A stretch of 36,360 bases of DNA from Acidimicrobiia bacterium (GTDB taxonomy: Bacteria > Actinomycetota > Acidimicrobiia > Acidimicrobiales > AC-14). The position numbers and the translations under genes were made by a program. The stretch lies in contig JAHFUP010000053.1 of the NCBI GenBank assembly GCA_023265025.1, positions 1-36,360 of the forward strand, in the 5' to 3' direction. Below the pieces are notes generated by a model, which had not been told where the DNA came from, made no database searches, and saw only the letters and a list, made by a program, of their open reading frames with translations. The stretch's first letter is position 1. Each line of letters starts with the position of its first letter. Of this stretch, positions 16,704 to 31,220 are shown piece by piece.

Positions 16704-18338
16704 ATGCGACGACTCCTCCCCCTACTCCTCGTGCTCGCCGCCGCGCTCGGCGGCACGTCGGCGGTCCTGTCGCCGGCCACGCCGGCCGCAGCCGACGCCC
16801 CGCGCCTGCCCGACAACCCCGGTCTCGGCCTGATCTACGACGGCCTGCGCGAATCCGCCCGGGACAGCATCTGCCGCGGGGCGTACGAGTCCCGGCTCTC
16901 GCCGTCGGCGGACGAGGCCCTGTGCACCCACGGCCCCGACCCGGCACCCGACGGCGTCGACGTCCGCCAGGACCGGCGGCCGGACCCGGCCGCCGAGTTG
17001 GCCCTCCCGCCCGCCGGCACCGCGGCCGAAGACGGGGCCGTCTCCTGCTACGGCAACGGCGCCGACGGCTTCCGGGTCCAGCTCATCTACGCCCGCCGCT
17101 CGACGAGCACCGACCGGTTCGACACCTACCTAAACTCGTTCCGCTCGTGGGCGGCCCGCCTCGACCAGGTGGTCAACGACAGCGCGGCGGAGACAGGAGG
17201 CACCAGGCACGTCCGGTTCGTCACCGACTCGGCCTGCGACCCGGTCATCGACCGCATCACTCTCACCAGTGGCGCCATCTCCACCTTCGGCACCATGCAG
17301 TCCGAGATGCGGTCCAAGGGCTACTCACGCCCGGACCGCAAGTACCTGGTGTGGGTCGACGCCAACGTCTACTGCGGCATCTCCGAGATCCAGTTCGACG
17401 ACCGCCCCGACACCACGCCCGGGGTGAACCGCAACAACGGCAACGCCCAGGTCAGGGGCGGCGTCGGCCGCGTCGACAACGGCTGCTGGGGCCTGACCAA
17501 CCTGGTCGAGGCCCACGAGCTGACCCACCTCCTCGGCGGCGTGCAGACCTCGGCGCCCAACGCCACGCCCGGCTACCACTGCAAGGACGAGTCCGACCGC
17601 CTCTGCTACGCCGACGGCTCGGCCGGCGCCACCATGCGCCAGGTGTGCCCATCGGCGCACGAGAAGCTCTACGACTGCAACCACGACGACTACTTCAGCA
17701 CCGCGCCGACGCCGGGCAGCTACCTCGCCACTCACTGGAACACCGCCAACAGCGCCTTCCTCACCAGCCAGTCCGGCGTCGTCGTGACCACCACGACGCT
17801 GCCACCGACAACGACAACGCTGCCTCCGACCACCACGACGACGCTGCCTCCGACCACGACCACGACGTCGACCACGACGTCGACGACATCGACCACGTCC
17901 ACCACCGTGACGTCCACCACGCTTCCGCCGGCCACGACCACCACCACGCCTCCGCCGGCGGGCAGCCCCCCGTCGGCGCCACAGTCGCTGACCGCCAGGC
18001 AGCCGGCCGTCGGCGCCGGCATCCAGCTGGCGTGGGTCGCGCCGGCCACCGGGCCGGTCACCGGGTATCGCGTGTACCGGGGCTCGTCGCCGTACACCCA
18101 GACGCTGCTGGCCACCATCGGCAACGTGCTCGGGTACGCCGACGCCTCGGCCCTCCCGACGCTCTACTACTACCGGGTCACGGCCTTCAACGACGCTGGG
18201 GAGGGCCCCAGCTCGCCGTTGGCGGGGATGATCGGCAAGGCGGCGACCGCGGCCGGCGTGGCCGGCCAGGGGGCCGACCCCCGCTTCGTCATGTCCGACC
18301 AGCGGATGGGCGTCCAGTGGATCCGCCGGTGGGCCTGA
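16704..18338 (+). CDS. Secreted HExxH metalloprotease-like protein with Thr/Pro linker and FN3 domain
   Basis: The protein has 544 residues. A signal peptide (about 1-31, cleavage near TPAAADA) is followed by a Cys-containing catalytic-like region. AHELTHLLGGVQ (270-281) contains HELTH, the zinc metalloprotease HExxH motif; a third ligand may lie in the following GYHCKDESDRLCY segment. Residues 361-418 are an almost pure Thr/Pro/Ser linker. Residues 423-512 form a fibronectin type III domain (SAPQSLTARQ ... GYRVYRG ... YYYRVTAFNDAGEGPSS). It should act outside the cell. The linker DNA (about 17790-17950) is a repetitive ACC/ACG tract that could vary in length. It lies 21 bp before the CaiB-like gene and may be transcribed with it. 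Confidence 0.8.
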   Translation: MRRLLPLLLVLAAALGGTSAVLSPATPAAADAPRLPDNPGLGLIYDGLRESARDSICRGAYESRLSPSADEALCTHGPDPAPDGVDVRQDRRPDPAAELALPPAGTAAEDGAVSCYGNGADGFRVQLIYARRSTSTDRFDTYLNSFRSWAARLDQVVNDSAAETGGTRHVRFVTDSACDPVIDRITLTSGAISTFGTMQSEMRSKGYSRPDRKYLVWVDANVYCGISEIQFDDRPDTTPGVNRNNGNAQVRGGVGRVDNGCWGLTNLVEAHELTHLLGGVQTSAPNATPGYHCKDESDRLCYADGSAGATMRQVCPSAHEKLYDCNHDDYFSTAPTPGSYLATHWNTANSAFLTSQSGVVVTTTTLPPTTTTLPPTTTTTLPPTTTTTSTTTSTTSTTSTTVTSTTLPPATTTTTPPPAGSPPSAPQSLTARQPAVGAGIQLAWVAPATGPVTGYRVYRGSSPYTQTLLATIGNVLGYADASALPTLYYYRVTAFNDAGEGPSSPLAGMIGKAATAAGVAGQGADPRFVMSDQRMGVQWIRRWA

Positions 18339-18359: not shown

Positions 18360-20105
18360 ATGAGCCCCGGGCGGACCGCCCCCCGGCTCGCCAGCGACAC
18401 CTGCGCCCGCCGCCTCGGGGCTGCCGGCGTGGATGCCGGCGCCCCGGAGATCACCTGGTACGGCCCCGCCGGCTTCCCCGCAGGACACCCCGCCAGCGAG
18501 GCGACCGAGCAGGCCCGCTGCGGCCTCATGGATGTGAACGGCCGCGACGCCGGCACGCCCCGGCGCCTCGGCCTGGAGGTGGCGTCGGTGGCCGCCGGCA
18601 TCCTCGCCGCGCAGGGGGCGGTCGCCGCCGAACTCGCCGGCCTGGTCGGAGGCGGGCCGGCGCCGGCCGTCCACACATCTGTCCTGCAGGCCGGCCTGCT
18701 CCTCCTGTCGCACTACTTCGTGGTGGCGACGGGCCTGGGCGACGCCGTCCCGGGCCCGCCGCTGCCGGCGCCCGGCCCCCCGTTCCGCAGCGCGGACGGG
18801 CACTGGTTCGAGATCGAGACCCTCGACGCCGAGCCGTGGAAGGCGTTCTGGACCACCCTCGGCGTCACCGCCGACGCCGACCTCGGCCGGGCGTGGACGC
18901 TGTTCCGGTGGCGGTACGAGCGCGCCGCCTGCTCGCTGCCGGTGGGGTTGCACGAGGCGACGCAGCGCCGGCCGCTGGCCGAGCTCCGCCAGGTGGCGGC
19001 CGGGAGCGAGGTGAGCCTCACGCCGCTGCGGGCGTACGCCGACGTCCTCGCCGAGCCCGGCACCGGCGTCGCCCACCCCGTCCTACGGGCGGTCGACGGC
19101 CTGCCGCCGGCCCCATTCTCCGTGCGGCCCCCGGACGCCGCCCTGCCGCTGTCGGGCGTCCGGGTCGTCGAGGCGACCAGCCGCATCCAGGGCCCGTTCG
19201 CCGGGATGCTGCTGCGCATGTTGGGGGCCGACGTCACCCGCATCCAGCCGCCGGAGGGCGACTACGGCCGGGCGGCCCAGTGCCTGCACCGGGGAAAGCA
19301 GGCGGTCCGGCTGGACCTGAGCCGCCCGGCCGGCCGGGCCGAGCTGATCGACCTGGTCACCGGCGCCGAGGTCTTTCTGCACAACTGGCGGCCCGGCAAA
19401 GCGGCGGAGTGGGACCTCGAGTTCGACGACCTGGCAGCCCGCCGGCCCGGTCTCGTCTACGCCAACACGTCGGGTTGGGGTGACCGCCCGGAGGCCCGAC
19501 GGCTGGTCGGCACCGACTTTCTCGTCCAGGCCTACGCCGGCATGGGCCACGGCCTGCACCCCGACGACGCGCCCGCGTTCCCGTCCCGCGTCATCCTGTG
19601 CGACCTGTTCGGCGGCCTGGTCGCCGCCGAAGGGGTGGTGACCGGCCTGCACCGACGGGCGCGCACCGGGCAGGGGTGGGAGGTGCGGTCGTCGCTGCTG
19701 GCCGGGGCGATGGCGGCCCAGGCCCATGTCCTCGATGACATGGCGCGGGGCAAGGAGGACGGCCGGCGCGACGGCCGTCCGGTGTGGGGCAGCCTCGACC
19801 ACCCGATCCCCACCACCGACGGCGACCTCGTCGTCAGCGCCGAGGACGACGCCGACCACGCTCGCCTCGGCGAGCTGTTCCGGGTGCGCCCCGGGCCACG
19901 TGAGGTCATGGACCGGCAGATCTGCGACAGGCTCCGCGACGGCACCGCCGCCGACTCGGAGGCGATGCTCACCGACGCCGGCATCCCGGCGGCCGTCGTC
20001 TGCAACGACCTCGCCGGTGTCCCGGCCGACCCCCGCCTCGCCGGCCTGTTCGAGCCGGCGGGCGGGACGTGCGTGGCGCCCCGGAGTCCGTGGACGTTCG
20101 AGTGA
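18360..20105 (+). CDS. Tandem CaiB/BaiF-family CoA-transferase-like protein
   Basis: The protein has 581 residues. The C-terminal part (about 263-575) is a CaiB/BaiF-type fold: LSGVRVVEATSRIQGPFAGM, LGADVTRIQPPEGDYGR, GTDFLVQAYAGMGH and FGGLVAAEGVVTGL. The N-terminal part (about 70-240) resembles the second half of another CaiB unit (ASVAAGILAAQGAVAAEL, FRSADGHWFEIETLDAEPW). Class III CoA transferases use an Asp in a pattern like DVSLLDAAL. The matching positions here are Gln110 (TSVLQAG) and Ala448 (RSSLLAGA), so the catalytic Asp seems absent in both halves. That assignment is by eye. It starts the plus-strand operon; its stop overlaps the next GTG. Confidence 0.75.
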   Translation: MSPGRTAPRLASDTCARRLGAAGVDAGAPEITWYGPAGFPAGHPASEATEQARCGLMDVNGRDAGTPRRLGLEVASVAAGILAAQGAVAAELAGLVGGGPAPAVHTSVLQAGLLLLSHYFVVATGLGDAVPGPPLPAPGPPFRSADGHWFEIETLDAEPWKAFWTTLGVTADADLGRAWTLFRWRYERAACSLPVGLHEATQRRPLAELRQVAAGSEVSLTPLRAYADVLAEPGTGVAHPVLRAVDGLPPAPFSVRPPDAALPLSGVRVVEATSRIQGPFAGMLLRMLGADVTRIQPPEGDYGRAAQCLHRGKQAVRLDLSRPAGRAELIDLVTGAEVFLHNWRPGKAAEWDLEFDDLAARRPGLVYANTSGWGDRPEARRLVGTDFLVQAYAGMGHGLHPDDAPAFPSRVILCDLFGGLVAAEGVVTGLHRRARTGQGWEVRSSLLAGAMAAQAHVLDDMARGKEDGRRDGRPVWGSLDHPIPTTDGDLVVSAEDDADHARLGELFRVRPGPREVMDRQICDRLRDGTAADSEAMLTDAGIPAAVVCNDLAGVPADPRLAGLFEPAGGTCVAPRSPWTFE

Positions 20106-21664
20106 GCCGGCTCGAGCCGAGCCTCTATGCCGCCTGCCGGCGCTGGCCGAACCGCCCGGCGGTCACCTTCGACGGCACGACGATCACCTACGCGGAGCTG
20201 GGCCGGGGCGTCGCCCGCCTGGCCGCGTCGTACCGCCGGCTCGGCATCGGCGCCGGCGACCGCATCGTCTGCCAGCTGCCCAACTCCCCCGAGCACGTCA
20301 TGGCCGTCAACGCGGCGTGGGCCGTCGGCGCCATCCACGTCGGCACGGACGACGACCTCACCGCACCCGAGCTGGCGTGGCTGGCCGAGCGGACCGAGGC
20401 CGCGGCGCTGCTGTTCCGATCCCACGCCGGCGCGCCCGACCCGGCCGCCACGGAGGACGCGGTGCGGGCCGCCTCCCCCGGCACCCGGCTGATCGTCTCA
20501 GGGGCTGCAGGTGCCGACCACCGGCTCGACGACCTGCTCGCCGGCCCCGACGAGATCGAGGACTGGGCCCCGCCCCATGGCCCCGACGACACCGGCCACC
20601 TGCTGCTCACGTCCGGCACGACGGGACGCCCCAAGGCGGTCATGGAGACGCTGCCGGGGTGCTGGGCCAAGATGCAGTTCTTCGTCGACGCCTTCCGCCC
20701 GGGGCCCGACGACGTCCACCTCCTCTACCTCCCGATGTCCCACGTCTTCGGCCTGCGGCTGGCCATGCTGGCCCTGCTCAGCGGCGGCCGGCTCATCCTC
20801 ATGGACCGGTTCTCCCCCCGGCGTGCGCTCCACCTGATCGCCGACGAGCGCGTGACCGTCCTCCCCGGCATGCCGGCCCACTTCACCCTGCTGTTCGACG
20901 CCCTCGACCCCGTGCAGCACCACGTCAGCACCCTGCGCTGGGCCATCTCCGCGGCGTCGACCCTGCCCCGGCCCCTCGTCGACCGCATCTACGACGAGCT
21001 GGGCGTGGAGCTCCTGTACGTCTACGGCTGCAGCGAGAACTTCACCGTGCTGACGACCGACCGGGACGAGATCCGCCGGGGCTCCGTCGGGCACGTCGTG
21101 TTCAAGGGGCCGGTGGGCACGCCGCCGGACGGCACCATCGCTGTCCTCGACCCCGGCGGAACGGACGTGCTGACCTCTGGCACGGTGGGCGAGATCGCCT
21201 TCGGCGCCGCCCACCCGGTGCGGTACTGGAAGGATCCCGACGCCGCCGGCGACGGCTGGTACCGCACCGGCGACCTCGGCCGGGTCGACCCCGACGGCAC
21301 CGTCTACATCCTCGGCCGCATCAAGGAGCTGGTGAACCGCGGTGGCTTGCACGTGTCGCCCACCGAGGTGGAGACGGCGGTGCGCCTGCACCCGGGCGTG
21401 GCCGACGCGGCCGTGGTGGCCACGCCGGACGCCGTGCTGGGAGAGGCGGTCTGCGCCTGCGTGGTGGCCGGGCCGGCGGGGCCGCCCGACCTGGCCGGCC
21501 TGCGTGAGTTCCTGGCGCCGACCCTCGCCCGGCACAAACTCCCCGACGAGCTGTGCCTGGTCGATACCATCCCCCGTACCAAGATCGGCAAGGTCGACCG
21601 GTCGGCGCTCCAGGCCATGGTGCGCGACGGCGGCCGAACCAGGGAGCGGTGGAGGGCGGGGTAA
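20102..21664 (+). CDS. Acyl-CoA ligase / AMP-dependent synthetase
   Basis: This is a 520-residue adenylate-forming enzyme that should activate a carboxylic acid with ATP and load it on CoA. The P-loop is TSGTTGRPK (170-178). Later motifs are YVYGCSEN (A5-like), WYRTGDLGRVDPDGTVYILGR (A7-A8) and the catalytic Lys at about 497 in PRTKIGKVDRSAL. All core motifs look intact. I chose GTG 20102, which overlaps the previous stop as GTGA, instead of ATG 20069, which would overlap by 37 bp. The substrate is unknown. Confidence 0.88.
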   Translation: MSRLEPSLYAACRRWPNRPAVTFDGTTITYAELGRGVARLAASYRRLGIGAGDRIVCQLPNSPEHVMAVNAAWAVGAIHVGTDDDLTAPELAWLAERTEAAALLFRSHAGAPDPAATEDAVRAASPGTRLIVSGAAGADHRLDDLLAGPDEIEDWAPPHGPDDTGHLLLTSGTTGRPKAVMETLPGCWAKMQFFVDAFRPGPDDVHLLYLPMSHVFGLRLAMLALLSGGRLILMDRFSPRRALHLIADERVTVLPGMPAHFTLLFDALDPVQHHVSTLRWAISAASTLPRPLVDRIYDELGVELLYVYGCSENFTVLTTDRDEIRRGSVGHVVFKGPVGTPPDGTIAVLDPGGTDVLTSGTVGEIAFGAAHPVRYWKDPDAAGDGWYRTGDLGRVDPDGTVYILGRIKELVNRGGLHVSPTEVETAVRLHPGVADAAVVATPDAVLGEAVCACVVAGPAGPPDLAGLREFLAPTLARHKLPDELCLVDTIPRTKIGKVDRSALQAMVRDGGRTRERWRAG

Positions 21665-21666
21665 GC

Positions 21667-22512
21667 GTGCCGGGATTCGTCACGACCGACGACGGGCTCG
21701 ATGTGGCGACCCACGACCTGGGCGGCGCCGGCCCGCCGCTCGTGATGGTCCACGCCGCCGGCCTCCACGGCCTGGTGCTGGCGCCGCTCGCCCGCCGGCT
21801 GGCCGGCGCGTTCCGGTGCCTCTCCCTCGACGGGCGGGGCCACGGCGACTCTCGCCTGCCGGCGGGGGGCGAACTCGACTGGTACGGGCTGGCGACCGAC
21901 GTCCTCGCCGTGGTCGACGGGCTCGACCTCGACCGCCCGTACGGCTTCGGTCACTCCAGCGGCGGCACGGCGGCGCTCATGGCCGAGCAGGCCCGCCCCG
22001 GCACGTTCGCCGCCATCTACTGCTTCGAGCCGGTGATCGTCGCCGCCGACCCGCCCCTCGGGCGCGACGACGACAGCGTGCTGGGCGCCCGCGCCCGCCG
22101 CCGGCGCACGTCGTTCGCCTCGCGCCAGGAGGCGTTGGCGCACTATGCGTCCAAGCCGCCGCTCGACAGTGTGGACCCCGAGGCGCTCCAGGCCTACGTC
22201 GACCACGGGTTCGACGATGACGGCGGCGGCGGCGTGCGGCTCAAGTGCCGGCCCGAGGACGAGGCCACCGTCTACGAGACGGCCACCGCCCACGACGCCT
22301 ACGGCCGTCTGCCGGAGGTCGCCTGCCCGGTGGCGGTCGCGTGCGGCTCGGTGAGCGAGGGGTGCACGCCCGAGCGGGCACGGTCCCACGTCGAGCGGCT
22401 CGCCCGGGGCCGCAGCCTGATACTGGCCGGCCTGGGCCATCTCGGGCCTCTGGAGCGGCCCGACCTGGTGGCCGCGTCGATCGCCGCCTACTTCGCCGGC
22501 ATCGAGGGATGA
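21667..22512 (+). CDS. Alpha/beta hydrolase
   Basis: The protein has 281 residues. The nucleophile elbow is GFGHSSGG with Ser97, and LSLDGRGHGDS (about 52-62) is the typical oxyanion-side motif. GLGHLGPLERPD near the end supplies the His. The acid residue is not obvious: the usual Asp strand reads VACGSVSEGCTPE here. The start is GTG 21667, with GGAGG about 11 nt upstream, two bases after the ligase stop. In this operon it may cleave a thioester, lactone or epoxide; this cannot be decided from sequence. Confidence 0.85.
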   Translation: MPGFVTTDDGLDVATHDLGGAGPPLVMVHAAGLHGLVLAPLARRLAGAFRCLSLDGRGHGDSRLPAGGELDWYGLATDVLAVVDGLDLDRPYGFGHSSGGTAALMAEQARPGTFAAIYCFEPVIVAADPPLGRDDDSVLGARARRRRTSFASRQEALAHYASKPPLDSVDPEALQAYVDHGFDDDGGGGVRLKCRPEDEATVYETATAHDAYGRLPEVACPVAVACGSVSEGCTPERARSHVERLARGRSLILAGLGHLGPLERPDLVAASIAAYFAGIEG

Positions 22513-23603
22513 GTGGCGTCGGGGCGCTGGTCGCAGAGGCGGCGGCGCGTGCCGGTCCCTGGCCCGGCGACGTCCCGTTCCTTGACAACCTGGAGCTACT
22601 CGTCGGCTCGTGCCGGGGGCTGAACACCGTCGGGGCGGAGGTGCTTCACAAGGCCGCCGTCCGCCACCTGCGGAACCTGCGCTACCTCCGGGCCTACGTC
22701 GACGAGCACCCCGACGCCGCCCGCCGGCCCCTTGACGGTGCGGTCGTGATCTCCGGGCTGCCGCGGACCGGTACGACGCTCCTGCACAACCTGCTGGCCC
22801 TCGACCCCGACCACCGGGTGCTGCGGTTCTGGGAGGCGTTGCACCCGGTCCCGCCCGACGCCGGGGGGCCGCCGGCGGAGGCGTTGCAGGCCCAGGCCGA
22901 GCGCTGGCTGGACGGCTTCCGCCGGCTGGTGCCGGCGTTCGGTGCCATCCACCGGGCGACGGCCACCGGGCCGGAAGAGTGCGACGCCCTCCTGCAGAAC
23001 ACCTTCGCCAGCCAGCACTTCGACGACATGTTCGACGCGCCGGCGTACTCGTCGTGGATGGCCGGCGCGCCGCTCACCGATGAGTACGCGCACTACGCCC
23101 TGCAGCTGCGAGTGCTGTCGGGCCCGGGCACGCGCTGGGCGCTCAAGTCGCCCAGCCACCTCGGCCACCTCGACGCCCTGCTGGCCGCCCTGCCGGGCGC
23201 GTCGGTCGTCCTCCTTCACCGCCACCCGCACGAGGCGGTGGCCTCCTACGCCAGCCTGATCCGCACCCTGCGGCGGGCCTACAGCGACGAGGTGTCGTCT
23301 GACGATGTGGGGCGCCAGGCCCTGGCGCGGACGTCGACGGCGATGCGGCGGGCACTCGGGGTGCCCGTGATCGACGTGTCGTACGCCGAGCTCGTGCGCG
23401 ATCCGGTGGCGGTCGTGCGGTCCGTCTACGCCGGCGTCGGGCGACCGCTGGACGCCGGCGTGGAGGCCGCGGTGCGGGCCTGGACGGTCGCCCACCCCCA
23501 GCACGAGCACGGTCCGCACCGCTACGACCTGGCCGAGTTCGGACTCACCGGCGACCAGGTCGACGCCGCGTTCGGCGACTACATGGAGCGCTTCCGGTCC
23601 TGA
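22509..23603 (+). CDS. Sulfotransferase family protein (Sulfotransfer_3-like)
   Basis: The protein has 364 residues. The PAPS 5'-phosphosulfate loop is LPRTGTT (84-90) in VISGLPRTGTTLLHNLLA. The 3'-phosphate region is in LLHRHPHEAVASYASLIRTL. WALKSPSHLGHLDALL is typical of the mycobacterial and proteobacterial Sulfotransfer_3 group. It would transfer sulfate from PAPS to a hydroxyl or amine; some relatives have unknown acceptors. The ATG overlaps the hydrolase stop as ATGA. Its end overlaps the convergent ligase gene by 25 bp. Confidence 0.85.
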   Translation: MSGVGALVAEAAARAGPWPGDVPFLDNLELLVGSCRGLNTVGAEVLHKAAVRHLRNLRYLRAYVDEHPDAARRPLDGAVVISGLPRTGTTLLHNLLALDPDHRVLRFWEALHPVPPDAGGPPAEALQAQAERWLDGFRRLVPAFGAIHRATATGPEECDALLQNTFASQHFDDMFDAPAYSSWMAGAPLTDEYAHYALQLRVLSGPGTRWALKSPSHLGHLDALLAALPGASVVLLHRHPHEAVASYASLIRTLRRAYSDEVSSDDVGRQALARTSTAMRRALGVPVIDVSYAELVRDPVAVVRSVYAGVGRPLDAGVEAAVRAWTVAHPQHEHGPHRYDLAEFGLTGDQVDAAFGDYMERFRS

Positions 23604-25015
23604 TCGCCGGCGCCCCATCCCCCGGCCCGCAACACGAAGCGGCGGAGCTTGCCGGTCGGGGTGCGGGGCAGGGCGTCGACCAGCACCACGGCGCGGGGCA
23701 CCTTGAACGGCGCCAGCTCGGCCCGGGCCAGGGCGACCAGCTCGTCCTGCACCACGTTCGCCGGCGGCGCGCCGAGGCCGGTGACGACGAACGCCTCCAG
23801 GCGCGACGCCCCGTCGACGCCGATCACGCCGGCCACCGCCACCTCGGTGACCGCCGGGTGGCGGCACAGCACCTCCTCGATCTCCTGGGGCGACACGGAG
23901 ATGCCGCCGACCTGCTCGACGTCGTCGGTGCGGCCCCGCAGGTGCAGGAAGCCGTCGTCGTCCAGGAACGCCCGGTCGCCCGTGCACAGCCACTCGCCGG
24001 CGTGGCCGACCGGCAGCGTGGGGCCGGCGACCCACAGCACGCCATCCCGCACGTCGACCCGGTAGGGCGGCAGGGCCCGGCCGACCGTGCCGTCCCGGCA
24101 CGCGTCGAGGGTGTTGCTGGCGAACGTCTGGCCCACCTCGGTGGAGCCAAGGCCGTCGAGGATCGGGCCGTCGAGGAAGGCCCGGGCGCGCGCCGCCAGC
24201 TCGACGCCGAGGGCCTCGCCGGCGGACACCGCCACCCGCACCGACCGGAGCGCCTCGGCCCGCCCGGCGGCGACAAGGTGGGCGTAGGACGTCGGGACGC
24301 TGAACAGCACCGTCACGCTGTGCCGCTCGACGAGGGCGGTGACGTCGGCCGGGCGGGGGTGGCCGGCGTGGAGGACGGCGCGGCACCCGGTCAGGAGTGG
24401 GAAGAACAGCGAGTTGCCGAGCCCGTAGGCGAAGTACAGCTTGGAGACCGACAGGACGACGTCGGAGCGGGCGAGCCCGATGGCCGGGCCGGCGAAGGCG
24501 GCGGCGTAGACGAGCGGGTGGCCGTGGGCGTGCACCACGACCTTGGGCGACCCCGTCGTGCCCGAGGTGAACTGGGCGTAGGCCGGTTCGCCGGCGCCGA
24601 CGGCGGCGGGCTCGGCCGCCGGGCGGCCCGCGATCTGTGCCGCCAGACCCTCTCCCGGTACGACGGGCCCGGCGAACCGGCGGGCGAGGCCGGCGCTGCA
24701 CACCACGACCGCCGGCTCGACCTCCGCCGCCGCGGCGCGGTGGTCGCCGGCGGTCAGCCGGGGGTTGACCGGCACGGCGACGGCGCCGATGCGGACCGCG
24801 CCGAGGAACGCCCAAACGAACTCGATGCCGTCGGGGAGGGCGATGAGCACCCGGTCGCCGGGGCCGGCGCCTTGCGCGGACAGGAGTGAGCCGGTCCGGG
24901 CCGCGCCGTCGTGGACCTCGGCGTGGGTGGCGACACGGTCGCCGGCGAGGAAGGCCACGTCGCCGGCCCAGCCGCCCTTGTCGGCTCGCACCGCCATGAC
25001 GGCAGCGAGGTTCAC
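23579..25015 (-). CDS. Benzoate-CoA-ligase-like acyl-CoA synthetase
   Basis: This is a 478-residue adenylate-forming ligase. The P-loop TSGTTGSPK is at 150-158. SKLYFAYGLGNSLFFPLLTG (191-210) is close to the pattern of the benzoate-CoA ligase subgroup, so an aromatic acid is the likeliest substrate. LCTGDRAFLDDDGFLHLRGR and PRTPTGKLRR (Lys456) complete the motifs. It starts at GTG 25015, overlapping the previous stop as GTGA. It is the last gene of the minus-strand operon and ends 25 bp inside the sulfotransferase gene. Confidence 0.88.
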   Translation of the reverse strand: MNLAAVMAVRADKGGWAGDVAFLAGDRVATHAEVHDGAARTGSLLSAQGAGPGDRVLIALPDGIEFVWAFLGAVRIGAVAVPVNPRLTAGDHRAAAAEVEPAVVVCSAGLARRFAGPVVPGEGLAAQIAGRPAAEPAAVGAGEPAYAQFTSGTTGSPKVVVHAHGHPLVYAAAFAGPAIGLARSDVVLSVSKLYFAYGLGNSLFFPLLTGCRAVLHAGHPRPADVTALVERHSVTVLFSVPTSYAHLVAAGRAEALRSVRVAVSAGEALGVELAARARAFLDGPILDGLGSTEVGQTFASNTLDACRDGTVGRALPPYRVDVRDGVLWVAGPTLPVGHAGEWLCTGDRAFLDDDGFLHLRGRTDDVEQVGGISVSPQEIEEVLCRHPAVTEVAVAGVIGVDGASRLEAFVVTGLGAPPANVVQDELVALARAELAPFKVPRAVVLVDALPRTPTGKLRRFVLRAGGWGAGDQDRKRSM

Positions 25016-25644
25016 GCCGCGCTGACCACAAGCCGGCCGCGGCACGGTCCGATGGGCCACCAGCCGGCGACCACCAGCCAGGCCCAGGCCGCGAACGGAT
25101 CCGAGTCCGCCCCGCCGAGAGCCGACACCACTGCGCCCGCCAGCAGCCACAGCCGTGCGCCCGAGGCGACGTGGGCGTCGACGTCGGCGTCGTCGGTGGG
25201 GTCGAGCCGCTCGGTGGCGACCAGCATGGCGACATGGAGGGCAGCCTCCAGCTCTTCCGTCCGTCCCGCGGCGAGCACCGAGTCCCGCAGTGTCGCCCGC
25301 CGGCGCTCCACCTCGGCCAACCACACCGGGTCGACGTCGGCCGTCGCCGCCACACCGCCGGGAAGCGCCACGACGTCGACCGGGAGGTCGACCGGGCCGG
25401 CCGGCGTCAGCCGGGCCAGGGATTCCACGTCGACCTCGGTGTCGCCGTCGCTCAGCGCGTCCAGCAGGTCCTGCACCCGCCGGCCGCCGGCGCCGAGCAC
25501 GGCGGCCAGATCGAGACGCCGGCCGTCGTCGGCCGCCACGCCCACCGGCCACGCCACGACCGCGGCCGCGCATAGCGCAGCCGCCGCCGTGGGCCGCGCC
25601 GGACCGAGGTCACCGCCGCCGGCGTCGACCGCCTTCCAGCTCAC
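25012..25644 (-). CDS. Unknown protein in the diiron/ligase operon
   Basis: The 210-residue protein matches no family I know. It is Ala/Val/Asp-rich. The N-terminal half reads like a small alpha/beta region (AALCAAAVVAWPVGVAADDGRRLDLAAVLGAG). The middle is helical and charged, with AEVERRRATLRDSVLAAGR. The last 50 residues are hydrophobic with three Trp (WAWLVVAGWWPIGPCRGR). No clear signal peptide is present. Both ends are GTGA overlaps (start 25644 with the diiron gene, stop 25012 with the ligase), so it is tightly coupled. It may be a structural partner of the diiron protein; this is inferred from position only. Confidence 0.7.
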   Translation of the reverse strand: MSWKAVDAGGGDLGPARPTAAAALCAAAVVAWPVGVAADDGRRLDLAAVLGAGGRRVQDLLDALSDGDTEVDVESLARLTPAGPVDLPVDVVALPGGVAATADVDPVWLAEVERRRATLRDSVLAAGRTEELEAALHVAMLVATERLDPTDDADVDAHVASGARLWLLAGAVVSALGGADSDPFAAWAWLVVAGWWPIGPCRGRLVVSAA

Positions 25645-26351
25645 CCGTTCCAATGGGGATCGACGTCGGGGAACGACAGGCCCAGGTCGCCCTCGACGAA
25701 CGCCCGACCCCGACGGGCCCACTCAGCCCGCGCCTCGTCGTTGGTCCGATGCTTCACGCCCCAGTGCCGGAAGGCGTCGTTGTTGGCCGACGCGCTGCGA
25801 CCGAAGAACGGCACGGTGAGGCGCACGAGATCGTCGACCGCCTGCTGTACCTGCGGGCGCTGCGCCGGACGATCGAGGAGGTCGCGAGTGTGGGCGATGC
25901 CGAAGGCAACGTGGAAGTGCTCCTCGGGCAGGAGCTTGACGACGAGGTCGCGCAGCGGCACGTACGAGGTGGCCAGCAGCTCCTCCATCAGCACCACCTC
26001 GGCCAGGTCGACCAGCGCCTTCAGCACCACGAACTCGACCCACGAGGTCAGCCGGTAGTCGAACACCGTCATCGGGCGGCCGGCCGTGGCGTCCTCCAGG
26101 CCGAGGTCCGTCGCCAGCCGCTGGAACTTCAGGTGGTGGCCGTACTCCTCCATGGCGATCCGGCACGCCAGCCACTTCTCCTTCGGCGCGGGCGCCAGGG
26201 CGATGGCCGGCTCGTCGAAGGCGGCGGCGCCGGCCAGCTCGTTGCGCACGTGGCTGGCCACCACCTTGCCCACGGCGGCGACGTACTCGGGGCCGACGGC
26301 GTGGGCCGCGGCGGCGTCGGCCACCTCGCCGGCGAACGGGGCCGCCGTCAT
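25641..26351 (-). CDS. Paa-type (PF05138-like) diiron oxygenase component
   Basis: The protein has 236 residues and a ferritin-like four-helix layout. A full diiron ligand set is visible: Glu38, Glu69-x-x-His72 (EEYGHH), Glu at 118-124, and Glu144-x-x-His147 (PEEHFH). The spacing and LPEEHFHVAFGIAHTRDLL resemble PaaA/PaaC, subunits of the phenylacetyl-CoA epoxidase. It is shorter than PaaA and has no visible reductase or PaaB, PaaD or PaaE partner in the window. With the aryl-CoA ligase next to it, oxygenation or epoxidation of a CoA thioester is a reasonable guess. The ATG overlaps the SDR stop as ATGA. Confidence 0.82.
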   Translation of the reverse strand: MTAAPFAGEVADAAAAHAVGPEYVAAVGKVVASHVRNELAGAAAFDEPAIALAPAPKEKWLACRIAMEEYGHHLKFQRLATDLGLEDATAGRPMTVFDYRLTSWVEFVVLKALVDLAEVVLMEELLATSYVPLRDLVVKLLPEEHFHVAFGIAHTRDLLDRPAQRPQVQQAVDDLVRLTVPFFGRSASANNDAFRHWGVKHRTNDEARAEWARRGRAFVEGDLGLSFPDVDPHWNG

Positions 26352-27253
26352 CCGCCGACTGCGACGGGTGGGCCGCCGAACAGGTCCCACTCCGACTCCA
26401 GCGGAACGAGGTTGGGCTCCAACGTGGCCCGCGCCGCGTCGAGCGACTCGGCGGTCCAGCCGGCGGGGTCGACCAGGCGCACTGCGGGCCGGGGCTGCGA
26501 CCACAGGGCGATCTCCGCGGCCCGCGCCCCGAACACCTGGCCCGACACGCCGGCCGCCGCCGGCGAGCACAGCCACGCGATCAACGGTGCGATGTCGGCC
26601 GGGCGGGCGGCCGGCGCCGTGTCGAGGTAGCGCCGCAGCTGCTCGGTCGCCGGCGGGATCGACTCGGTCATGCGGGTGAAGGCGGACGGGGCGACGTAGT
26701 TGACACACACGTCCCTCGTCGCCAGCTCCAGGGCGACGGCGCGGGTCAGCCCGAACAGACCCGCTTTGGCCACGGCGTACGCGGCCTGGCCGACGCTGCC
26801 CACCAGGCCGGCGGTGCCACCGAGGTAGACGATGCGGCCGTACCCGTCGCGCCGCATCGTCGGGGCCAGCGCCCGAGTCAGCTCGATGGCGACGCTCAGG
26901 TGCGATCCGAGCACCTCCGCCCAGTCGTCGTCGGTCGCCTTGTGCACCATGCGGTCGCGCAGCGTGCCGGCGGCGTGGACCAGCACCGAGGGCGGCTCGC
27001 CGGCCCACGCCTCGACGGCGTCCCGCACCGCCTCGGCGCCGGCCCGGGTGCGGGCGTCGACGTCCACCGCGAGGGCCCGGCCGCCGGCGGCGCGTACCTC
27101 CTCGGCCACCGCCTCGGCCGGCCCGGCGCCGGCCGCCGAGCCGTCGAGGGCGACGCCGGTGTCGTTGACGCCCACCGGGTGGCCGTCAGCCGCGAGCGCC
27201 AAGGCGACGGCTCGACCGATGCCCCCGGCCCCTCCCGTGACGATCGCTGCCAT
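26348..27253 (-). CDS. Short-chain dehydrogenase/reductase lacking the usual catalytic Ser
   Basis: The protein has 301 residues. The NAD(P)-binding TGGAGGIGRAVA is at the N-terminus, VNDTG follows, and YAVAK is the YxxxK motif. The position of the catalytic Ser, 13 residues before the Tyr, reads Gly in IVYLGGTAGLVGSVGQAAY. A Thr is next to it. About 60 residues after the core (AVRLVDPAGWTAESLDAAR to the end) are an extension, as in some 3-hydroxyacyl-CoA dehydrogenase-like SDRs. It starts the minus-strand operon at ATG 27253; a GGTGGG sequence and a TACGGT box both lie just upstream. Confidence 0.85.
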   Translation of the reverse strand: MAAIVTGGAGGIGRAVALALAADGHPVGVNDTGVALDGSAAGAGPAEAVAEEVRAAGGRALAVDVDARTRAGAEAVRDAVEAWAGEPPSVLVHAAGTLRDRMVHKATDDDWAEVLGSHLSVAIELTRALAPTMRRDGYGRIVYLGGTAGLVGSVGQAAYAVAKAGLFGLTRAVALELATRDVCVNYVAPSAFTRMTESIPPATEQLRRYLDTAPAARPADIAPLIAWLCSPAAAGVSGQVFGARAAEIALWSQPRPAVRLVDPAGWTAESLDAARATLEPNLVPLESEWDLFGGPPVAVGG

Positions 27254-27262
27254 CCGCGACCC

Positions 27263-27268
27263 ACCGTA
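27263..27268 (-). promoter_or_regulatory. Candidate -10 box of the SDR operon
   Basis: TACGGT on the minus strand ends 9 nt before the ATG at 27253. The whole divergent gap is 35 bp, so promoters for both directions must overlap the opposite 5' end or lie inside the genes. Confidence 0.4.
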
Positions 27269-27274
27269 GATCGG

Positions 27275-27280
27275 TACCAT
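27275..27280 (+). promoter_or_regulatory. Candidate -10 box of the phosphopantetheinyl transferase gene
   Basis: TACCAT ends 8 nt before GTG 27289, which would give a leaderless or one-base leader mRNA. It is only 6 bp from the opposite-strand box of the SDR operon. Confidence 0.4.
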
Positions 27281-27288
27281 CCGCCGGC

Positions 27289-27963
27289 GTGCAACGGGTC
27301 GAGGTGTGGGTCGCCCCTCTCGACGGCCCGCCTGCCGCGAACGCCGGCCTCTCCCCCGCCGAGTGGGCCCGCGCCAAGCGCTACCGGTTCCCGGACGACG
27401 CACGCCGCTTCACCGCCGCCCGAAGCTGGCTGCGCCGGGTCCTCGGCGCCGAGCTCGGCGTGGCGCCGGCCGACGTCGCCTTCGCCGATGGTCCGGGCAA
27501 GCCCCGCTTGCGCGACGAGGCCGGCGTGCGGTTCAACCTCTCCTACACCGAGGACGTGGCGTTGATCGCGGTCGCGGATCGCGAGGTCGGTGTCGACGTG
27601 GAGCACCTCGGCCGGGGGCTGCGGATCCTCGACGCCGCCAGCGTGGCCTGCACACCCGAGGAGATCGCCACCCTGCACCAACTGCCGCCGGACCCCCGGG
27701 CCGAGGAGTTCCTCCGTCTGTGGACAGCCAAGGAGGCGGTCCTCAAGGCCACAGGCCAGGGCTTGACCGTGCCACCCGACCGGGTGCGCGTGGGTGCGCG
27801 CCGAGCCGGCGCCGCCACACCGGTCGTGATCCTCGGCGATGCCAGCCCGCCCCGGTGGTGGGTGCGAGAACTTCGGCCGGCGCCGGGCTACGTCGGTGCG
27901 GTGGCCGCCGAAGGGGGGGACTGGGACATCCACCTTCGGATCGTCACGGCCGCGGACCTGTGA
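27289..27963 (+). CDS. Sfp-type 4'-phosphopantetheinyl transferase
   Basis: The 224-residue enzyme moves phosphopantetheine from CoA to a carrier-protein Ser. Motifs: RFNLSYTEDVALIAV (81-95), GVDVE (101-105, metal-binding Asp103 and Glu105) and LWTAKEAVLKATG (144-156, Glu149 and Lys152). Length and motif spacing fit the Sfp/Gsp group. It starts at GTG 27289, divergent from the SDR operon by 35 bp. No PKS, NRPS or extra carrier protein is in the window, so its target is either outside or is the AcpP at 12461. Confidence 0.92.
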   Translation: MQRVEVWVAPLDGPPAANAGLSPAEWARAKRYRFPDDARRFTAARSWLRRVLGAELGVAPADVAFADGPGKPRLRDEAGVRFNLSYTEDVALIAVADREVGVDVEHLGRGLRILDAASVACTPEEIATLHQLPPDPRAEEFLRLWTAKEAVLKATGQGLTVPPDRVRVGARRAGAATPVVILGDASPPRWWVRELRPAPGYVGAVAAEGGDWDIHLRIVTAADL

Positions 27964-28304: not shown

Positions 28305-29375
28305 TCAGCTGGTCGTCACGGGCCGGCACCCGACTGGCGTGCTGGGGGTGCGCGAGTTGACGCTCACGGCGAAGCCGTGGGCGAGCGTGAAGTGGGTCGT
28401 GGGCTGGGCCAGGCTGGTGGCGTAGAGGACGAGCGTCCGGGTGCCCAACCCGCTGACCACCTCTTGCCCGTTCCCGGCTGGCCGGCTGCAGGCCGAGTCG
28501 GCGCCGTAGATGACGAGTTGGAGGGGAGCGAGCGGTCCCGGACCGAGGTTCACCGGCTGATCGAACGTCAGGGTCACCGTGCCCGCGGACCGGTCAGCGG
28601 CGGCCGACCGCAGAACCGGAGGCTTGTCGTAAATCGTCGTCGTGCTCGTCGGCGCACCGGTGGTCGTCGGGTGTGCCGTGGTCGTCGGCGCAGGGGTGGT
28701 CGTCGGGGTCGGCGGGACCGTGGTGGCGCTGGCGTCGCTGGAGATCTGCCTTGGGCCCGATCCGCCGCCGATGAGCAGGGCCAGGACCGCCACGACCGCG
28801 ACGGCGGCGACCGCCGCCACGGGAACGATTGCCCGCTTCGGCCGCCAGCCCGGGGTCGGGCGGTCCGGCACCGGCCCCGGCGGCGGTGCAGGCACGGGCC
28901 TCTTGCCGATCGGTTCCTCAACAACGCTCTTCAGGGTGGCGATGAGCCGCCCGATGTCGTAGTCCCACCGCAGGTCACTGACCTCGAGGGCGTTGATGCG
29001 GGTGAGTGGGGTCAAGTCGACCGGCAGTTGGGCGGCTGTCGGCATGGAGGCCTGCTGGACCAGCACGGGGATCAACGGCACCTTTCGGCGCAGCGCCGCC
29101 GCCAGCTCAAGCCGGACGAAGTCGTTGGGATCGTCGAGTCGACGGTGGCCGTGGCGGTCAGTGATGGCGAGCCAGTCCTCGCCGATGAGGAAGACGACCA
29201 CGTCGCAGGACGCTATGGCCTCCTCGATGATGCTGGGGACGTCAACGCCCGGCTGGATGGTGTCGACGTCCATGAAGACCCGTGACTGCGGGAATGCGGT
29301 CCGGAGACGGTCGACCAGCCGGCCGGCGTGACCGGCCGAGTCTCCCCTCCGGTAGCTCACGAAGATCGTACTCAC
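28305..29375 (-). CDS. TIR-domain protein with TM helix and extracytoplasmic Ig-like domain
   Basis: The protein has 356 residues from GTG 29375, which has GGCGGAGGG 8 nt upstream. TIR domain (1-150): STIFVSYRRGDSAGHAGRL, VFMDVDTIQPGVDVPSIIEE, CDVVVFLIGEDWL and NDFVRLELAAAL. Glu90 is at the position of the NADase Glu of catalytic TIRs. A Pro-rich linker leads to a TM helix (183-203). A Thr/Pro stretch (218-248) follows, then a C-terminal beta domain with VTLTFDQPVN, as in SwmB/Big-type Ig-like domains. TIR is predicted inside and the Ig-like part outside. Signalling or defence are both possible. No partner gene is adjacent. Confidence 0.82.
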   Translation of the reverse strand: MSTIFVSYRRGDSAGHAGRLVDRLRTAFPQSRVFMDVDTIQPGVDVPSIIEEAIASCDVVVFLIGEDWLAITDRHGHRRLDDPNDFVRLELAAALRRKVPLIPVLVQQASMPTAAQLPVDLTPLTRINALEVSDLRWDYDIGRLIATLKSVVEEPIGKRPVPAPPPGPVPDRPTPGWRPKRAIVPVAAVAAVAVVAVLALLIGGGSGPRQISSDASATTVPPTPTTTPAPTTTAHPTTTGAPTSTTTIYDKPPVLRSAAADRSAGTVTLTFDQPVNLGPGPLAPLQLVIYGADSACSRPAGNGQEVVSGLGTRTLVLYATSLAQPTTHFTLAHGFAVSVNSRTPSTPVGCRPVTTS

Positions 29376-29777
29376 GCGTTCGCCCTCCGCCGTGACCCCA
29401 CCGCGGAGAATGATACGACTATCCATTGCCAATGGGAGCGGTCGAGAGGCGCCAGAGATACACGGACTACGGCGGAGCGTGGCGCAGCTCGAGATCGACA
29501 ACCGTCCTTAAGCCTGGATCTGTGCGCGTGCGCTGGTCAGGCCAGCACGCAGTCGGAGAACACCCCCTGCGGGCCCCGATCGTCGTTCCTCCTGCGGGAC
29601 CCCGGTCGTCGTTCCTCCTGCGGGACCCGGTCGTCGTTCCTCCTCCGCCACACCGGTCGGGCTCCCCCTCCGGGACCGAGACCCCGGCTCGCCAGCTCGG
29701 CGCCCGGCGGGCGTTCTGTGACACCGGCGCGTCTGACTAGCGATTCCCGAGCCGTCGAATCGGTTGGAGGCGGATAG
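29376..29777. other. Gene-free stretch between the TIR gene and the cysS remnant
   Basis: This contains the promoter side of the TIR gene (a TATCAT box at 29410-29415 on the minus strand, about 35 nt upstream of the GTG, which leaves room for its Shine-Dalgarno). It also holds an imperfect palindrome TGCGCTGG/CCAGCACGCA near 29529-29551 and the tandem repeat array at 29562-29648. No gene is supported. Confidence 0.55.
29562..29648. repeat. Tandem array of a 25-26 bp GC-rich repeat
   Basis: There are three successive copies of CCTCCTGCGGGACCCCGG followed by TCGTCGTT; the first copy reads CCCCTGCGGGCCCCGA and a degenerate fourth follows. Units abut without spacers. Single copies lie at 28083 and 32505. 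Confidence 0.75.
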
Positions 29778-31220
29778 TCACGTCCATCGCCATGATGATG
29801 TTCCGTCGGCTTGGTCCTCGAGGTTACGCCGAGGCTGACGAGTTGACCTCGGAGGTCATCCGATTTAGCGAAGTCCTTGGCGAGCCGTGCGGTCATCCGC
29901 TCGGCCATGAGTGCCTCGACGCGCTCCTCCGTGACGTCGACGCCAGCGCGCTTGAGGTCTAGGTCGCCTGGTGCCAGGTCGATGAGGCCCACCGCGAGCA
30001 CGGCGTCGAACTCCCGGGCGAGGGCACTCACTTCCGCATCGGTGAGGGCGTTGTCCCGCGAGCTGGCCGTGATAACTGCGAGCGCCTTGGCGGTGTTGAG
30101 GTCGTCGCTGATGGCGGCGTCAAACGCGTCGAGGTGGTCTTGTGCAGCGTTGCCCAACGATGAGGCCGGTTGGGTGCGGGCCGAGGCGTAGCGCTCGAGC
30201 AGCCGGCGCAGAGCGGTGCGGGCGCCGTCCATCGCGTGCCAGCTGAACTCGATCTGGCTGCGGTAGTGGGCTTGCAGGAGGAGGTACCGGTAGACGAGGG
30301 GGTGGTACCCGCGGTCGACGAGGTCGTCGACCAGGACACCACCTCCTGTGGACTTGGAGATCTTGGCGCCCCTGAGGTTGATGAACTCGCCGTGTAGCCA
30401 CCAATCAACCCAGTCCTGTCCATCGGCCAGGTAGGCCTCGCTCTGCGCTATCTCGTTGGTGTGGTGGATCGCGATGTGGTCCACGCCCCCAGTGTGGATG
30501 TCGAAGTGGCGCCCGAGGTGCTCGATCGACATCACGGAGCACTCAAGGTGCCAACCCGGCGCTCCACGGCCCCATGGAGAGTCCCAGTCCATCTGCCGCT
30601 GCTCGGCCGGGTCGGCCGTTCGCCAGACCGCGAAATCGGCCGGGCGGCGTTTGCCTGCGACCGACTCCACCCGGGCACCTTCGAGCTGACCCTCGATATC
30701 GAGTAGGGCGAGTTTGCCGTAGTCGGCGTCGCGGGCGGTGTCGAAGTAGAGGCCGTTCGGCAGCGTGTAGCACCACCCTGTCCGAGCGAGTTCGGCCGCG
30801 AACTCGATCATCTGCGGGATGTGGTCCGTCGCCTTCGACCAGCAGGTCCGGGTCAAGCACCCGCAGGTTGGCCAGGTCTGCCTTGAACGCCTCGGTGTAG
30901 TGCTCAGCGATTTCCCAGATCGTGCGCCTCTCGCGCCGGGCCGCCACCTCGAGCTTGTCGTCGCCGACGTCGGCGTCGGAGGTCAGATGACCGACGTCGG
31001 TGATGTTGATGACGTGGCGAACATCAAAGTCCTTCCACCGCAGGGTCCGCTTCAAGGTGTCGGCGAACACGTAAGCCCGCATGTTGCCGATGTGCTGGTA
31101 GGCGTACACCGTCGGCCCGCACGAGTACATCGCGACATGCGGCGGGGTCCTCGGTTCGAACGCTGACACCCGACGTGTCAGCGTGTTGAACAGCCGCAAC
31201 GGCGATCTCGACACGAACAT
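29778..31220 (-). pseudogene. cysS: Cysteinyl-tRNA synthetase gene broken by two frameshifts
   Basis: The N-terminal frame (ATG 31220) has [19 protein letters not shown] (HIGH-like motif) and [13 protein letters not shown]. At about 30835-30850 the reading moves by one base into the frame with [19 protein letters not shown]. It continues through [29 protein letters not shown] and the KMSKS-like AKISKS. Near 29815-29835 a second shift is needed to reach the normal C-terminus (NLEDQADGTSSWRWT, stop 29778-29780). Without it the frame runs on into unrelated repeat DNA to 29537. All class I CysRS landmarks are still present, so decay is recent. A working cysS is presumably elsewhere. Sequencing error is an alternative for each single-base change. 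Confidence 0.8.

Follow-up and report, generated by a model that had tools for sequence, protein, structure and literature searches.

A probable aryl-CoA oxygenase gene set of the PaaA/BoxB kind, conserved and so far unnamed, in Acidimicrobiia

We analyzed a 36,360-nucleotide stretch of DNA from an Acidimicrobiia bacterium (contig JAHFUP010000053.1 of assembly GCA_023265025.1, positions 1 to 36,360; hereafter the window), in which two operons, one of them carrying the gene of a predicted diiron oxygenase, meet tail to tail. The genome that holds them, G000, comprises 5.45 Mb in 185 contigs. The plus-strand operon encodes a CaiB/BaiF-type family III coenzyme A (CoA) transferase (CaiB; 18360–20105), an acyl/aryl-CoA ligase (Lig1; 20102–21664), an alpha/beta hydrolase (21667–22512), and a sulfotransferase (22509–23603). 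The minus-strand operon encodes, in the direction of reading, a short-chain dehydrogenase/reductase oxidoreductase (SDR; 26348–27253), a PaaA-like protein predicted to be the catalytic protein of a diiron oxygenase (25641–26351), a protein of an unnamed family that is probably the partner subunit of this oxygenase (UNK; 25012–25644), and a second ligase resembling benzoate-CoA ligase and the aryl-acid ligase FadD22 (Lig2; 23579–25015). The gene for a Sfp/HetI-type phosphopantetheinyl transferase (PPTase; 27289–27963, plus strand) starts 35 nt from the SDR start. Five of the six same-strand junctions are 4-nt GTGA or ATGA overlaps, including that of the Lig1 GTG start with the CaiB stop. The sole non-overlapping junction is that between Lig1 and the hydrolase, where a 2-nt gap separates the Lig1 stop codon (last base 21664) from the hydrolase start, the nearest following GTG in frame (21667). 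At their tails, the two operons share 25 nt (23579–23603). Third-position GC ranges from 0.88 to 0.97 across the nine frames, and the GC content of the window is 72%. A preliminary description had reported this tail-to-tail arrangement with its nearly universal 4-nt overlaps and had assigned families to the PPTase and to all of the eight genes but the unknown one; the arrangement was confirmed, and the families it named were all recovered by Pfam or NCBIfam matches.

PaaA is the catalytic subunit of the phenylacetyl-CoA epoxidase PaaABCE, in which PaaC is structural, PaaB is bridging, and PaaE is the reductase. The PaaA-like protein of the window belongs to PF05138 (74.1 bits) and matches solved PaaA chains at 5e-13. 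Its residues E38, E69, H72, D115, E144, and H147 align (with a two-residue offset in the PDB chain index) with E42, E72, H75, D126, E155, and H158 of PaaA, the six iron ligands listed in a review (PMC4498308). All six are invariant in 37 of 37 aligned PaaA-like sequences (alignment A3, which represents 37 of the 83 PaaA-like loci collected). Membership of PF05138 and the PaaA iron ligands would suit a diverged phenylacetate (Paa) catabolic locus as well, but the remaining evidence makes that explanation very improbable. With TIGR02156, the PaaA equivalog model, the window protein scored 55.2 bits against a cutoff of 280; for two truncated proteins of the outgroup the scores were 249.2 and 235.7, and a third gave no match. 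In a phylogenetic tree, from which one fragment of the outgroup (L118) and, as in A3, part of the PaaA-like rows are omitted, the 37 PaaA-like rows were separated from 27 Acidimicrobiia PaaA-type outgroup rows by one branch with 100/100 support, with long branches flagged. By this sequence evidence, the PaaA-like protein belongs to a clade separate from true PaaA. No second PF05138 protein such as PaaC was found in the genome, which is 98.4% complete and in which the window gene is the sole match, and the ligase of the minus operon, Lig2, resembles benzoate-CoA ligase, not phenylacetate-CoA ligase (see below). A Paa operon was thus rejected on the TIGR02156 score, the separate clade, and the lack of a second PF05138 protein. 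The PaaB bridging subunit is not among the eight genes, to which the search for it was confined. Four distant PaaE-type reductase-like matches lie elsewhere in the genome, the best with 31% identity in the flavin/NAD part. A plasmid search returned 47 records, all below 60% identity; as identities were 26–31% among the 30 listed, these are probably other PaaA-type proteins.

To collect related loci, genomes were scanned with the PaaA-like protein, the best 80 of 151 stretches encoding a relative were kept, and their gene content was read by tblastn with the nine window proteins. Three contexts were recognized: nine distinct Acidimicrobiia loci (the window, L014, L015, L127, and L016–L020, several on short contigs); group B, with ten Streptosporangiales loci and one from Glycomyces (L021–L030 and L053); and group C, with 62 loci, mostly from Proteobacteria. 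In the tree of PaaA-like proteins, Acidimicrobiia and group B share a branch with 100/100 support, and Acidimicrobiia alone are unsupported (57/13).

In all three contexts the PaaA-like gene is mostly accompanied by UNK. Wherever both genes were recorded, in 71 rows (68 distinct loci, three having been entered twice: L010=L014, L011=L127, and L012=L015), the UNK-family gene shares the strand of the PaaA-like gene; it is adjacent downstream in 42 rows, about one gene further in 26, and upstream in 3. As a control, the family was absent within about 1.5 kb of all 28 outgroup PaaA-type genes. Across bacterial phyla, as far as sequences can tell, the UNK family is tied to the PaaA-like clade, and the unknown protein, formerly regarded as an orphan, is a member of this family. 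A search of 118 relatives found UNK in five (G000, G001, G002, G111, and, as a weak match, G012), and among 396 genomes of the phylum surveyed with the UNK profile, one besides G000 has it. This genome, G500, is from another actinobacterial family, and its UNK gene (L133:3308–3943) lies at the edge of a 3,943-nt contig.

The window UNK protein has no Pfam or NCBIfam match, and no Pfam match better than E 0.046 was obtained for any of 17 UNK relatives or 29 group C proteins (C8). The profiles used were A1, of 17 rows without L021, L015/L012, and the duplicate L010 (L021 matches the profile at 4e-61), and A2, of 29 of the 30 group C sequences, the incomplete L039 sequence being omitted. The UNK proteins of Acidimicrobiia and group B are homologous (hhalign E 4e-35). 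Between the Acidimicrobiia UNK and C8, hhalign gave a probability of 87% (E 4e-6), which was 74% with group B added and 37% for group B alone. One Acidobacteriales sequence, L032:155–757, matches both the UNK and the C8 profile (1.8e-7 and 2.8e-20, with the search size set to one million); its gene is located upstream of SDR-PaaA-cupin. Structure models built from separate alignments, with pLDDT (predicted local distance difference test) values of 96.3 for UNK and 93.0 for C8, agree in the order of their elements across the final two thirds, with a terminal hairpin at the GWWPIG/GRWPLG motif. Compared with the PDB, the UNK model gave a best Foldseek E of 1.3 and a best VIA Z of 5.1, the latter for the immunity protein RhsI2, which the C8 model matched with Foldseek E values of 0.012–0.2 and Z values of 11–12 (11.6). 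RhsI2 is the immunity protein of an Rhs toxin, and this moderate match may reflect only a common helical arrangement. Since helical folds often give Z values of this size, we take the shared fold of UNK and C8 as a supporting line only. PaaC and ferritin-like chains were absent among the Foldseek and VIA matches listed for UNK, which does not exclude a likeness.

UNK could instead be an enzyme acting on the unstable oxygenase product, for example by opening or isomerizing a ring epoxide in the way that BoxC serves BoxB, an option we regard as possible but rather unlikely. Its gene can sit behind the cupin gene or upstream of the oxygenase gene, and its models are compact and single-domain with several invariant polar and aromatic residues. 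BoxC, according to the same review (PMC4498308), co-purifies with BoxB and relieves product inhibition. However, no clear known enzyme fold was recovered for UNK, and the best neighbor, itself a moderate match, is a protein-binding one (RhsI2). UNK is probably the partner subunit of the PaaA-like oxygenase.

Among the Acidimicrobiia, the set recurs in both conserved and rearranged order. Locus L014, from a genome of the same genus (G002), has the complete eight-gene set, arranged convergently as in the window, and L015, from another genome of this genus (G001), contains the set minus the hydrolase, plus the PPTase, again convergent; the coordinates of both loci match those in G002 and G001. 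In L127 (G111), from another family, CaiB-Lig1-hydrolase (a partial match)-sulfotransferase faces Lig2-UNK-PaaA. Loci L016 and L017 carry Lig1-SDR-PaaA-UNK-CaiB, in this order, on a single strand, with a divergent sulfotransferase gene in L017; L018 and L019 carry Lig1-PaaA-UNK-CaiB, likewise on a single strand. In L020, SDR-PaaA-Lig2 faces the sulfotransferase, with neither UNK nor CaiB and with a Lig1-like fragment at the edge. The PaaA-like gene is thus present in nine of nine loci; UNK, CaiB, and Lig1 are each present in eight, the SDR and the sulfotransferase in six, and Lig2 in five. In a survey of 395 genomes of the class, PaaA-like matches reached 1e-10 in 73, and PaaA-like matches below 1e-18, CaiB at 1e-40, and Lig1 at 1e-120 marked the same two genomes, G000 and G001. 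As these two belong to one genus, the rearranged loci are the stronger evidence of unity.

We considered that two unrelated pathways, an acyl-CoA/sulfotransferase operon and an aryl-CoA oxygenase operon, might simply meet tail to tail. The opposite strands, the two differing CoA ligases, and the absence of the SDR, hydrolase, sulfotransferase, or Lig2 from some relatives would fit such a juxtaposition, as would the restriction of CaiB plus Lig1 to one genus in the class survey. Yet in L016–L019 PaaA-UNK stands between Lig1 and CaiB on a single strand, the convergent layout is kept in L127 although it comes from another family, and the PaaA-like clade, CaiB, and Lig1 mark the same two class genomes, so that we judge the juxtaposition quite unlikely. 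Because the gene set recurs in other genera, in conserved and rearranged order, it is more than a chance assembly, and by sequence comparison the plus and minus operons behave as one conserved unit. This agrees with the earlier proposal that the two operons belong together, for which the presence of most of the set in two same-genus genomes and one other-family genome now speaks. That proposal would have failed had the operons never occurred together elsewhere or had each matched a known separate pathway; Lig1/CaiB are joined with PaaA/UNK in one operon in four contigs, and our searches gave no known separate pathway that either operon matched.

The other members of the set were assigned as follows. 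CaiB (581 aa) matches PF02515 in two stretches with 239.8 bits (gathering score 23.3), and its closest PDB chains are succinate-hydroxymethylglutarate (HMG) CoA-transferase and CaiB/BaiF proteins. Like the class III CoA-transferases (CaiB/Frc/succinate-HMG), it has the PF02515 domain and the aligned Asp of the GxD motif, which we take to be catalytic; unlike them, it has an extra partial N-terminal half, and only residues 262–510 align with solved members. Lig1 (PF00501 and PF13193) has orthologs of 61–78% identity in eight of the nine Acidimicrobiia loci. The alpha/beta hydrolase (PF12697, GTG start) is most similar in NCBIfam to PcaD-type enol-lactonase, well below the cutoff; L014 has it next to the set, L127 has part of it there, and none was found in L015. 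The sulfotransferase (Sulfotransfer_3, PF13469, 129.7 bits) is present in the window, L014, L015, L127, L017, and L020. Lig2 scored 320.8 bits with TIGR02262 (cutoff 375.25) and 344.7 bits with PRK06060 (cutoff 1228). Its best PDB match is the benzoate-CoA ligase 2v7b (2.6e-74), and by its PDB matches it is closer to benzoate-CoA ligase than to phenylacetate-CoA ligase. The SDR belongs to PF13561/PF00106. The window SDR, like all six Acidimicrobiia SDRs of a 63-row alignment, keeps Tyr159 and the Lys of what we take to be the Asn-Ser-Tyr-Lys catalytic tetrad and has Gly in place of Ser and His in place of Asn; the Ser is kept in the 56 other SDRs with a letter at this position. The redox role of the Acidimicrobiia SDR may have been lost or changed.

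The gene neighborhoods of groups B and C bear on the chemistry. All 11 group B loci encode the PaaA-like protein, UNK, Lig2, and a PabAB fusion, ten encode a nonribosomal peptide synthetase (NRPS), and nine encode PabC at the threshold used. In L026, the fused synthase scored 346.3 bits against a pabB cutoff of 328.4, and fell below the trpE cutoffs shown; the next gene is of the Aminotran_4 (PabC) type. Anthranilate in place of p-aminobenzoate was rejected on these grounds, and group B looks like an undescribed cluster for a p-aminobenzoate-derived peptide. Among the 62 group C loci, 57 encode an SDR, 50 a reductase, 33 a cupin, 30 an ADP-forming CoA ligase, and 22 an FAA hydrolase. The L034 cupin is a gentisate 1,2-dioxygenase (NCBIfam, 507.8 bits, cutoff 442.1). 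No ring-cleavage gene was recognized among the neighbors of a Reyranella locus that has no cupin gene, the proteins examined being 10 from L077, L072, and L093.

The kinship with group B raises the alternative that the Acidimicrobiia cluster makes a specialized metabolite, such as a sulfated aryl compound, instead of breaking down an aromatic acid. Consistent with this, the Acidimicrobiia PaaA-like proteins share the 100/100 clade with group B, whose loci combine the same PaaA-UNK-Lig2 trio with PabAB (11 of 11) and NRPS (10 of 11) genes; moreover, the set includes a sulfotransferase, and a PPTase gene is adjacent in the window and L015. On the other hand, the locus has no NRPS, polyketide synthase, or carrier protein, the condensation domains of the genome are all on another contig, CaiB and the pair of CoA ligases would suit a catabolic route as well, and the related Proteobacterial operons look catabolic. 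We give a biosynthetic role a minor chance.

We hypothesize that the eight genes form one Acidimicrobiia accessory pathway built around a diiron oxygenase acting on the CoA ester of an aromatic acid, a reading to which we attach moderate confidence. The preliminary description had already read CoA activation and diiron oxygenation from the family set, and the present results support both; the order of steps that it gave, from activation through oxygenation, reduction, and hydrolysis to sulfation, stays tentative. Benzoate-type acids are suggested as substrates by the nearness of Lig2 to benzoate-CoA ligases, PabAB in group B, and the gentisate dioxygenase of L034, and we infer that the common core of the three contexts activates a benzoyl-type acid as its CoA ester and then oxygenates it. 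In the proposed pathway, Lig2 and/or Lig1 would form the CoA ester of a benzoate-type acid, and the PaaA-like protein would provide the diiron centre for oxygenation, presumably of the ring. UNK would serve as a physical partner subunit in place of the PaaC/PaaB of phenylacetyl-CoA epoxidase. Electrons would come from a reductase encoded elsewhere in the genome; the Proteobacterial relatives have a dedicated reductase in the operon. The SDR would then process the oxygenated acyl-CoA, the CaiB-type transferase would pass its CoA on or the hydrolase would cleave the CoA off, and the sulfotransferase would sulfate a hydroxyl.

Several observations weigh against this pathway. No dedicated reductase was found in the Acidimicrobiia or group B loci. 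The SDR was not found on the 10.3-kb contig of L127 and is lacking in L018, L019, and the 11 group B loci. UNK is missing from L020 and from its genome, as searched with profile A2 only. It was also not found in 8 of the 52 group C loci with at least 3 kb downstream, three of the eight genomes having a family match elsewhere by the same profile, one of them partial. The cupin (gentisate dioxygenase) is present in only 26 of the 47 group C loci with at least 5 kb downstream, and the L034 gentisate dioxygenase has no match in the window genome, in a search run with no positive control. In the p-aminobenzoate clusters, oxidation of the amino group instead of the ring is possible.

Among known systems, the set resembles PaaABCE in its PF05138 protein, the six aligned diiron ligands, and an adjacent aryl-acid CoA ligase, but it differs in the separate clade, the absence of PaaC from the genome, the UNK partner, and the lack of an adjacent PaaE. 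With the Box system (BoxAB and BoxC) it shares the proposed chemistry, in which a diiron enzyme that lacks a PaaC-like subunit oxygenates a benzoyl-type CoA ester, whereas no BoxC-type gene is among the eight and UNK has no known Box counterpart; the window PaaA-like protein matched only PaaA and PaaC models in NCBIfam (E≤0.01), BoxB having been compared through models alone. As far as is known, described routes to gentisate use flavin or Rieske enzymes. The link to the gentisate pathway lies in the Proteobacterial relatives, which pair SDR-PaaA-like-UNK with gentisate 1,2-dioxygenase and an FAA hydrolase, while these ring-cleavage genes are absent from the window set. According to the review (PMC4498308), BoxB works without a structural subunit, and Paa and Box are the two systems it describes for aerobic, CoA-dependent ring oxygenation. 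No published description of the gene set was found among titles and abstract openings, subscription papers lying mostly outside this coverage, and this negative is no proof of novelty. Taken together, the locus is a conserved, probable aryl-CoA oxygenase gene set of the PaaA/BoxB kind that so far has no name.

A bolder and more tentative proposal, which we would not yet expect to hold, is that these loci represent a third CoA-dependent aerobic ring-oxygenation system, in which the PaaA-like protein and UNK replace PaaABC. It would convert benzoyl-type CoA esters to gentisyl-CoA in Proteobacteria and serve p-aminobenzoate peptides and the Acidimicrobiia set in Actinobacteria. The group C route might, for example, run from benzoyl-CoA by 2,3-epoxidation and opening to a 2,5-dihydrodiol, with SDR oxidation then giving gentisyl-CoA. 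On the main reading, too, this clade would be a further ring-oxygenation system with a different partner, extending over Acidimicrobiia, Streptosporangiales, and Proteobacteria, and a protein family without a Pfam entry, UNK, would gain a testable function. The p-aminobenzoate/NRPS clusters, which are undescribed, would gain a candidate oxygen-insertion step, and for soil and marine bacteria there would be a candidate route to gentisate by way of CoA esters.

The PPTase (PF01648), previously counted with the pathway, is probably not part of it. Of the nine Acidimicrobiia loci, only the window and L015 have it next to the set, although L014 extends only about 1.1 kb upstream of the SDR and several other loci are short on this side. 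The genome has just one other gene of the ACPS family, a 178-aa frame that is presumably AcpS. The NRPS condensation domains of the genome, three matches, are all on contig C150 (L134), and this NRPS is a likely client of the PPTase. Because the gene is rarely adjacent, is one of two of its family, and has an NRPS on another contig, we treated it as a neighbor and set it aside as a pathway gene.

Further genes flank the set in the window. Upstream of CaiB, a putative secreted protein (16704–18338, plus strand) has a HELTHLLG zinc-protease-like motif, noted by eye, and a weak fn3 match; by tblastx it is kept beside CaiB in L014 and L015. Next to the PPTase lies a TIR_2-domain protein with a threonine/proline-rich stretch (28305–29501, minus strand). 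Beyond it, the catalytic domain of a cysteinyl-tRNA synthetase is split over two frames (29537–31220, minus strand), with model positions 3–97 in the open reading frame at 30543–31220 and positions 99–299 in that at 29537–30856; the split is a frame break or an assembly error.

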